The position numbers and the translations under genes were made by a program. The notes beneath the pieces are model-generated. The model did no database searches, was not told where the DNA came from, and saw only the letters and a program-made list of their open reading frames with translations. Below, piece by piece: positions 47,804 to 52,585 of a stretch of DNA of 64,000 bases (its first letter is position 1; each line of letters opens with the position of its first letter). The stretch is from Bradyrhizobium quebecense (GTDB lineage Bacteria; Pseudomonadota; Alphaproteobacteria; Rhizobiales; Xanthobacteraceae): assembly GCF_013373795.3 (NCBI RefSeq), contig NZ_CP088022.1:5270001-5334000 (forward strand), in the 5' to 3' direction.

Positions 47804-47928
47804 GTTGGACCTTCCTGTTAGGAACCCCGTATTTCGGCGCATTGAACATTGGCCGCCGGACCGCTAACGCATCATCAGCCCACCTGTTCCTGGAAGTCAG
47901 GAACCCGTTCTGCCGGATACCAAGCGCG

Positions 47929-48618
47929 ATGGATGAATGGATCGACTATTACGATTCCACGCATACGATCTATGCCAGCCGACTGCACCGCGACCTGCAT
48001 TTCCAGGTCATCGCAAACGACATCATCGGCTACATCACCTCGCCCGACGCCGTGGTGCTGGACTATGCCTGCGGTGAGGCGCTGTCGGCGGCGAAGGTCG
48101 CCAATGCCTGCGCCCAGCTCTATCTGGCGGAGCCGGCGCCCGGCGTGCGCGGCCGCCTGGTCGCGCGCTTCGCGTACGACACCCGGATTCGCGTCCGCTC
48201 GCTCGATGAGCTGAAGAACATGGCGGCGGATTCGATCGACCTGGTGGTGATGAACTCGGTGGCGCAATACATGACGCCGCAGGAGCTCGACTCCGCGTTC
48301 GACGTGATCCACCGCCTGCTGAAGCCCTCGGGCCGTTTCGTGCTCGGCGATATCCTGCGGCCGGAAGTCGGCATGGCCAGGGACGTCATCGCGCTGCTGC
48401 GCTTTGCGGCGACCCATGGCTTCCTGCGCGATGCCTTGATCGGGCTCGCCTCGACCGCGCTGTCCGATTACCGGCAGCTGCGCACCAGGATCGGGCTGCA
48501 GCGCTACCGCGAGGACGAGATGATCGCGAAGCTCGGCGCCGCCGGCTTTGACGCCACGCGCGCACCGCGCAACATCGGGCACAATCCGTGGCGGATGACG
48601 TTCGTGGCGCACCACTGA
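47929..48618 (+). CDS. SAM-dependent methyltransferase-like protein
   Basis: A 229-residue class I methyltransferase-like protein from ATG 47929. It has an SAM-binding first strand VVLDYACGEALSAAKV, then LAEPAPG, LDELKNMAADSIDLVVMNSVAQYM and LKPSGRFVLGDILRP. No membrane segments or signal. The substrate is not evident. The start lacks a clear ribosome site. It is divergent from dps, with about 125 bases between starts. Confidence 0.7.
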   Translation: MDEWIDYYDSTHTIYASRLHRDLHFQVIANDIIGYITSPDAVVLDYACGEALSAAKVANACAQLYLAEPAPGVRGRLVARFAYDTRIRVRSLDELKNMAADSIDLVVMNSVAQYMTPQELDSAFDVIHRLLKPSGRFVLGDILRPEVGMARDVIALLRFAATHGFLRDALIGLASTALSDYRQLRTRIGLQRYREDEMIAKLGAAGFDATRAPRNIGHNPWRMTFVAHH

Positions 48619-48695
48619 TCAGAGGTTGCAGGAAATATTAAGGTTAACCAAAAGTAAACATAGCGGCCGCTGAAATAATCAGCAATGATCCACTC

Positions 48696-48771
48696 GGCCC
48701 GGTGGCGGAAGCGTCGACGCGGCAGTGGTGCAACACTGTTTATCCTGGTTCAACTCCAGGCCGGGCCTCCA
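48696..48771 (+). tRNA. tRNA-Cys(GCA)-like sequence with abnormal anticodon arm
   Basis: Exactly 76 bases with a perfect seven-pair acceptor stem (GGCCCGG/CCGGGCC), a perfect five-pair T stem with loop TTCAACT, discriminator T73 and encoded CCA. The D stem is weak (three pairs) and the D loop lacks the usual GG. In the normal register the anticodon stem cannot pair. Shifted by one base it gives CAGTG/CACTG with a six-base loop GTGCAA, placing GCA after T. U73, G2-C71, C3-G70 and GCA are tRNA-Cys identity elements. It is either an unusual functional tRNA or a decayed copy. No other tRNA is in the window. Confidence 0.55.
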
Positions 48772-49035: not shown

Positions 49036-49092
49036 GCGCTACAATATGTAGCGCATGGCTCGAGGGACGCGCGGGACGCGCGCCCTTTTTTT
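49036..49092 (+). promoter_or_regulatory. carB leader: two hairpins, the second terminator-like
   Basis: Hairpin 1 is a perfect eight-pair stem GCGCTACA/TGTAGCGC (49036-49054). Hairpin 2 pairs GGG plus CGCGC with GCGCG plus CCC (49064-49085, one bulged A) and is followed by seven T residues (49086-49092). The T-run ends only 28 bases before the carB ATG. That is the structure of an intrinsic terminator, so attenuation of carB is plausible. TACAAT at 49040-49045 also resembles a -10 box. Confidence 0.6.
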
Positions 49093-49120
49093 GTGCCCAA
49101 ATTCCAGTCCGCGAGAGCTG

Positions 49121-52585
<3,465 letters not shown>

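Follow-up and report, generated by a model that had tools for sequence, protein, structure and literature searches.

The 64,000-nucleotide stretch of the Bradyrhizobium quebecense genome analysed here (hereafter, the window) encodes a tRNA-Cys-like RNA from a family in which, across the sequences we compared, the anticodon arm is the varying part while the acceptor stem, the T arm, and the 15-48 pair are nearly fixed. A frozen body combined with a short or replaced codon-reading loop suggests that this tRNA is retained for some function besides codon reading. We therefore favor, at a probability of ca. 0.45, the reading that this RNA is a paralogue of tRNA-Cys that has ceased to decode, is probably charged with cysteine by the host's CysRS, and may be used off the ribosome. 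If true, vertical inheritance has preserved a tRNA that gave up its decoding half but retained its aminoacyl half. Such an RNA would separate, in a natural setting, the tRNA features needed for charging from those needed by the ribosome, and would point to a new way in which Bradyrhizobium and its relatives use Cys-tRNA. Among the papers listed by full-text literature searches, no title or abstract opening describes such an RNA.

A tRNA-Cys-like RNA with a shifted anticodon stem

The 76-nt RNA (Table 1) has acceptor and T stems that are Watson-Crick paired throughout (7/7 and 5/5 pairs, respectively), a T loop of 7 nt (TTCAACT), an encoded CCA end, and all of the cysteine determinants U73, G2-C71, C3-G70, and GCA, so that the first description of this locus, made from the letters alone (hereafter, the sequence-only reading), can be followed directly in the sequence. 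That reading had further proposed that the anticodon stem forms only in a shifted register around the loop GTGCAA, and this is borne out by the covariation of the shifted but not the standard register described below. In this register, positions 28-32 (CAGTG) pair with 39-43 (CACTG). The shifted stem can be extended by G.U pairs 27-44 and 26-45, and in the standard register (27-31 with 39-43) there is indeed no stem and the triplet reads TGC. The D loop (GAAGCGTCGA) lacks GG, again as first described. In an elongator tRNA-Cys, a five-pair anticodon stem is expected to carry a loop of seven bases that includes U33 and GCA, and the D loop is expected to contain G18-G19. The window RNA departs from both expectations.

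Table 1. Features of the RNA locus and its surroundings, in window coordinates
Feature	Position	Strand	Basis
tRNA-Cys-like RNA gene, CCA encoded	48696..48771	+	sequence, ARAGORN, genus conservation, covariation
Acceptor stem GGCCCGG, 5' strand (3' strand 48761-48767)	48696..48702	+	sequence
D stem GCG, 5' strand (3' strand 48718-48720); D loop without GG	48705..48707	+	sequence
Shifted anticodon stem CAGTG, 5' strand (3' strand 48734-48738)	48723..48727	+	sequence, covariation
Six-base loop GTGCAA with U-GCA	48728..48733	+	sequence, relatives
T arm CCTGG-TTCAACT-CCAGG	48744..48760	+	sequence
Discriminator U73 and CCA	48768..48771	+	sequence, alignments
Conserved element TTAAGGTTAA, beginning 58 nt upstream of the RNA	48638..48647	+	upstream motif comparison
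AATGAT, possible -10 element	48684..48689	+	upstream regions, judged by eye
Upstream neighbour: class I SAM-dependent methyltransferase ORF, start codon uncertain	47842..48618	+	
Downstream neighbour: ORF reading as carB, putative carbamoyl-phosphate synthase large subunit (sequence reading), start uncertain	49055..52585	+	

ARAGORN calls the locus (48696-48771) as tRNA-??? with anticodon (gc). An Rfam scan of 701 bases around it gave a sole match to tRNA-Sec (RF01852) at 14.7 bits compared to a gathering score of 47, and a genome-wide search with RF00005 (first-look filter on) produced 57 matches (E up to 10), and 48696-48771 is not one of them. The minimum-energy fold of the RNA alone retains the acceptor, T, and shifted anticodon arms with a folding energy z of -2.18, and 9/200 dinucleotide shuffles were equally stable. 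Folding by itself beats shuffles only mildly; the weight of evidence against chance rests on conservation and covariation.

The sequence-only reading had suggested looking for a normal tRNA-Cys(GCA) elsewhere in the genome and for the same RNA in other Bradyrhizobium genomes, and both were found: The former is encoded at locus L066, and the latter was matched by DNA search in 112/117 sampled genomes of the genus. For the remaining five, our covariance model gave weak matches only, and the ten of these loci that we read are ordinary tRNAs (four weaker matches were left unread). In an alignment of 25 distinct genus sequences, from which two decayed copies (L098 and L099) out of 27 are omitted, the shifted stem is paired in 98.0% of cells with changes on both sides in 5/6 pairs, compared to just 33.6% of cells for the standard register, and one of five covariation measures ("further pair types") showed no excess over shuffles (290/500). 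The mean pairwise identity of the RNA gene within the genus is 0.907, compared to 0.657 and 0.699 for two upstream and 0.728 and 0.609 for two downstream flanking stretches of 76 bases (250 sampled pairs with unlike gene sequences, from 46 genus loci).

Given the conservation in 112/117 genomes and the compensatory changes in the odd stem, this locus is not a decaying copy, which disposes of one of three options offered by the sequence-only reading. Its tRNA-Cys affinity stands, as judged from U73, G2-C71, C3-G70, and GCA, and the option of a minor decoding tRNA is disfavored (see below). Separately, genome G066 carries two diverged copies (L098:752-826 and L099:814-893) with a damaged T arm or changed discriminator, one of them on a plasmid of Bradyrhizobium sp. 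195.

Relatives across the order and their anticodon arms

We ran the covariance model (R1; L, G, f, and g labels denote loci, genomes, families, and genera) on 149 genomes of the family, 297 of the order, and 385 of the class. Its matches include canonical tRNA-Cys, so that raw tallies are not counts of the odd-loop RNA, and it may also miss canonical tRNA-Cys (e.g., in G115); of the stronger matches listed for family and order, we fetched and read a large share. Among the matches listed, odd-loop copies occur in families f1, f35, and f29 as well as in one f6 genome, and a single pattern scan biased toward one acceptor variant named Methylopila, Hansschlegelia, Nitrobacter, Tardiphaga, Afipia, Rhodoplanes, and others as carriers. 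Outside the order, all 28 class loci that we read are canonical tRNA-Cys, in a search at E up to 2e-11 that left 22 further matches unread and whose strict cut-off could pass over weak relatives elsewhere.

From the matches listed we compiled 109 distinct relatives (106 by script and three unparsed rows added by hand) after excluding 27 canonical tRNA-Cys and four ambiguous sequences (L159, L160, L161, and L167). The finder required U73, GG at positions 1-2 and 9-10, pairing of both the acceptor and the T stem (the latter with TTC), and a 3' strand of 12 bases. U73, G1, G2, and the paired acceptor and T stems are therefore partly built into the set, whose members are not independent of one another, and the same fixed requirements made L146, L149, L168, L173, L174, and L212 invisible to it. 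In all but the last of these six, T loop and discriminator are separated on the 3' strand by 13 bases rather than 12, a helix length that resembles tRNA-Sec. As a distinct case, three loci of genus g107 in family f23 (L159, L160, and L167) encode a tRNA-Cys whose anticodon loop, GTGCAAA, has seven bases and whose short D loop lacks GG, and R1, a model able to miss one, detected no second tRNA-Cys in this genus.

The 109 relatives comprise 76 with U33-GCA, 18 with GCA but without U33, and 15 without GCA, including L150, which we reassigned by hand from the first to the last group. These 15 consist of ten GGAA tetraloops (with Methylopila, Hansschlegelia, and one Chelatococcus contig as named carriers), four loops from the Rhodoplanes genus, and one GTGAAA. 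A seven-base loop is present in three of the 76 (CTGCAAA in L255 and L276, GTGCAAA in L141). By contrast with this variation in the anticodon arm, the acceptor 5' strand is GGCCCGG in 102/109 relatives, and the 15-48 pair is A-U, G-C, or G-G in 107/109, a value reached by 0/5000 shuffles. GG after position 15 of the D loop is absent in 80/109, whereas 27/27 canonical tRNA-Cys sequences carry it.

U73 can also be judged from four alignments (A1-A4) of model-picked rows for which it was no selection criterion, and there it is found in 25/25, 20/21, 26/29, and 22/22 rows, where the exceptions in A2 and A3 trace to a decayed copy, a copy located on a plasmid, and a different tRNA. On a tree of 75 columns with few resolved forks, U33 loss takes at least six changes and GCA loss three, of which well-supported branches force only two and one, respectively.

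Upstream element, neighbours, and candidate partners

A TTAAnnTTAA-like element precedes the RNA with a median start at -59 in a motif search. Within -70..-33, TTAA occurs in 72/82 non-redundant upstream regions (200 shuffles: mean 6.35, maximum 18), a count that overstates independence because many of these upstreams are homologous, but in only 2/50 distinct ordinary tRNA upstreams of the window's genome. One lenient pattern applied to both sets matched 58/82 RNA copies versus 1/50 ordinary tRNAs. The element also accompanies copies in other neighbourhoods, e.g., the Methylopila set beside a gene that we read from its sequence as putative gyrA. These patterns suggest that the RNA is under its own regulation, apart from the ordinary tRNAs of the genome. 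As a regulator we considered CtrA, whose consensus is published as TTAA-N7-TTAA, and dropped it: The commonest spacing is TTAA-N2-TTAA (exact in 16/82, with up to one mismatch in 47/82) and not TTAA-N7-TTAA (1/82 and 15/82, respectively), and the genome holds 13 copies of TTARGGTTAA, barely above the 10 of the reversed sequence used as control.

The methyltransferase gene lies beside the RNA, within the fetched stretch, in 48/48 genus loci (L001-L030, L081-L097, and L100). We rejected it as a partner since it had no match at E 1e-15 in the searched genomes of f35 (six), f29 (five), and f6 (two) and is present without the RNA in G134, G146, G166, and G172; because the two occur apart, we treat it as a neighbour by descent. 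A second CysRS was likewise discarded, given that PF01406 has one strong match per genome in 21/21 genomes with all weaker matches at or below 43.2 bits. PEARL-type enzymes (PF14028) were silent in 20/20 genomes, which is uninformative because all 14 controls were equally silent.

FemAB-like proteins (PF13480) offer a lead and nothing firmer: They appear to track the RNA within f1 and f35, though not cleanly outside. Their best match is stronger than 1e-20 in 14/14 genomes with the RNA and weaker in 4/4 f1 genomes without it, but it also exceeds this level in G260 and G300, which both lack the RNA. Reciprocal best matches, drawn post hoc from 40 fetched stretches that are a part of the strong matches and reflect few events, form a first cluster spanning eight f1 and three f35 genomes and a second of 12 that includes G300. 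Counterparts of the first cluster's protein reach 28% in f6, 24% in G260, and 21% in f29.

At nine loci (L245:2908-2995, L131, L205, L248, L267, L273, L274, L276, and L279), some of them in Afipia records, a class II tRNA-Ser-like RNA with discriminator U73 follows 14-30 bases after the Cys-type copy, and its anticodon arm consists of four pairs capped by a tetraloop (TAAC at seven loci, TAGC and TGAT at one each). Among the matches listed for the family sample, only G179 and G234 have it at 94-100%, with a further match of 85% in G179 and others at or below 81%. In the window, a palindromic repeat directly abuts the CCA from 48772 to about 48860 (end judged by eye); among 51 predictions in the genome, the same repeat start follows the ordinary tRNAs L060, L068, and L078, and a similar one follows L044 and L054. 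Two further odd predictions in this genome are a tRNA-??? (ga) without CCA and an irregular tRNA-Asn (L079 and L080). In G135, a weak second R1 match (L128:2013-2082; 31.7 bits) with gapped arms lies downstream of the RNA and reads like a decayed copy.

Proposed role and rival readings

If the RNA is a non-decoding, cysteine-charged paralogue, an old duplicate of tRNA-Cys would have left codon reading, in keeping with an anticodon loop that is shortened, stripped of U33, or replaced in different lineages. The host's single CysRS would still charge it with cysteine in most lineages, and the Cys-tRNA would then serve as donor away from the ribosome, for a tRNA-dependent transferase or an enzyme of a comparable kind. 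Charging in most lineages seems plausible because U73, G2-C71, C3-G70, and GCA are kept; these features, together with core tertiary interactions, are given as the bacterial cysteine determinants in PMC9976931, which also describes U73 alone as able to confer cysteine identity on minihelices. In many sequences, moreover, GCA persists after U33 or the usual loop length has been lost, a pattern more in line with recognition by CysRS than with codon reading. The main difficulty for this reading is the lineages without GCA, i.e., the Methylopila/Hansschlegelia set and four Rhodoplanes-genus sequences, for which cysteine charging cannot be assumed. A wider version that we consider doubtful would see a cysteine-charged tRNA family in several families of the order, with its own regulation and serving non-ribosomal cysteine transfer, in which selection holds the aminoacyl end while the anticodon arm drifts to non-decoding loops, once capped as a GGAA hairpin.

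Among known tRNAs, canonical bacterial tRNA-Cys(GCA) shares with the window RNA the acceptor starting in GG and ending in CC, U73, CCA, the D stem, and the T arm, as well as GCA in most relatives, but window-type RNAs differ from it by a six-base or altered anticodon loop, an upstream element of their own, a D loop mostly without GG, and A15-U48 in most. Staphylococcal tRNA-Gly species for cell-wall synthesis are likewise isoacceptors for off-ribosome work with D loop changes, though they keep a seven-base anticodon loop unlike the six-base loop here. The selC* tRNA-Cys described in PMC7609411 is also an extra tRNA-Cys of non-standard structure beside a normal one. However, according to PMC7609411, the branch in selC* tRNA-Cys and allo-tRNAs is 8/4 or longer and their variable arm is longer too, while the window RNA has a 7/5 branch (13 in total in five fetched relatives) and a short variable loop. 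An extra CysRS gene is reported there for Desulfobacterales only, and the 21 genomes that we searched with PF01406 hold no second CysRS.

The chief rival, which we regard as possible though on the unlikely side, is an uncharged regulatory or decoy RNA of tRNA shape that binds, e.g., CysRS or a tRNA-modifying or processing enzyme. It would readily accommodate the loss of GCA in 15/109 distinct relatives among the matches listed, ten of them with the GGAA tetraloop, and the upstream element that is absent at 49/50 ordinary tRNAs of the genome. However, a decoy need not keep the nearly fixed U73, CCA, and acceptor stem, nor GCA, which 94/109 relatives retain even though U33 and loop length vary. 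Taken by itself, the sequence may fit a charged tRNA used off the ribosome as well as a regulatory RNA that stays uncharged. A minor tRNA-Cys that still decodes through its six-base loop, perhaps inefficiently or with frame shifting, strikes us as rather improbable. Decoding is still conceivable in 76/109 species' copies because they keep U33-GCA, three of them with a seven-base loop; against this, the shifted stem leaves the loop one base short, a normal tRNA-Cys is present in the genome, and 33/109 relatives are without U33 or GCA, and it is this loss of U33 or the whole anticodon that disfavors decoding.

By far the least probable explanation, and one already disfavored by the data, is a tRNA gene fragment left behind by an integrated element. 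Such fragments are known to give rise to odd tRNA predictions (PMC9897764), and two decayed copies do occur in one genome, one of them on a plasmid. However, the RNA is full length, a search of phage records gave no match to it, the methyltransferase gene lies alongside in all 48 genus loci checked, and the stem has undergone compensatory changes.
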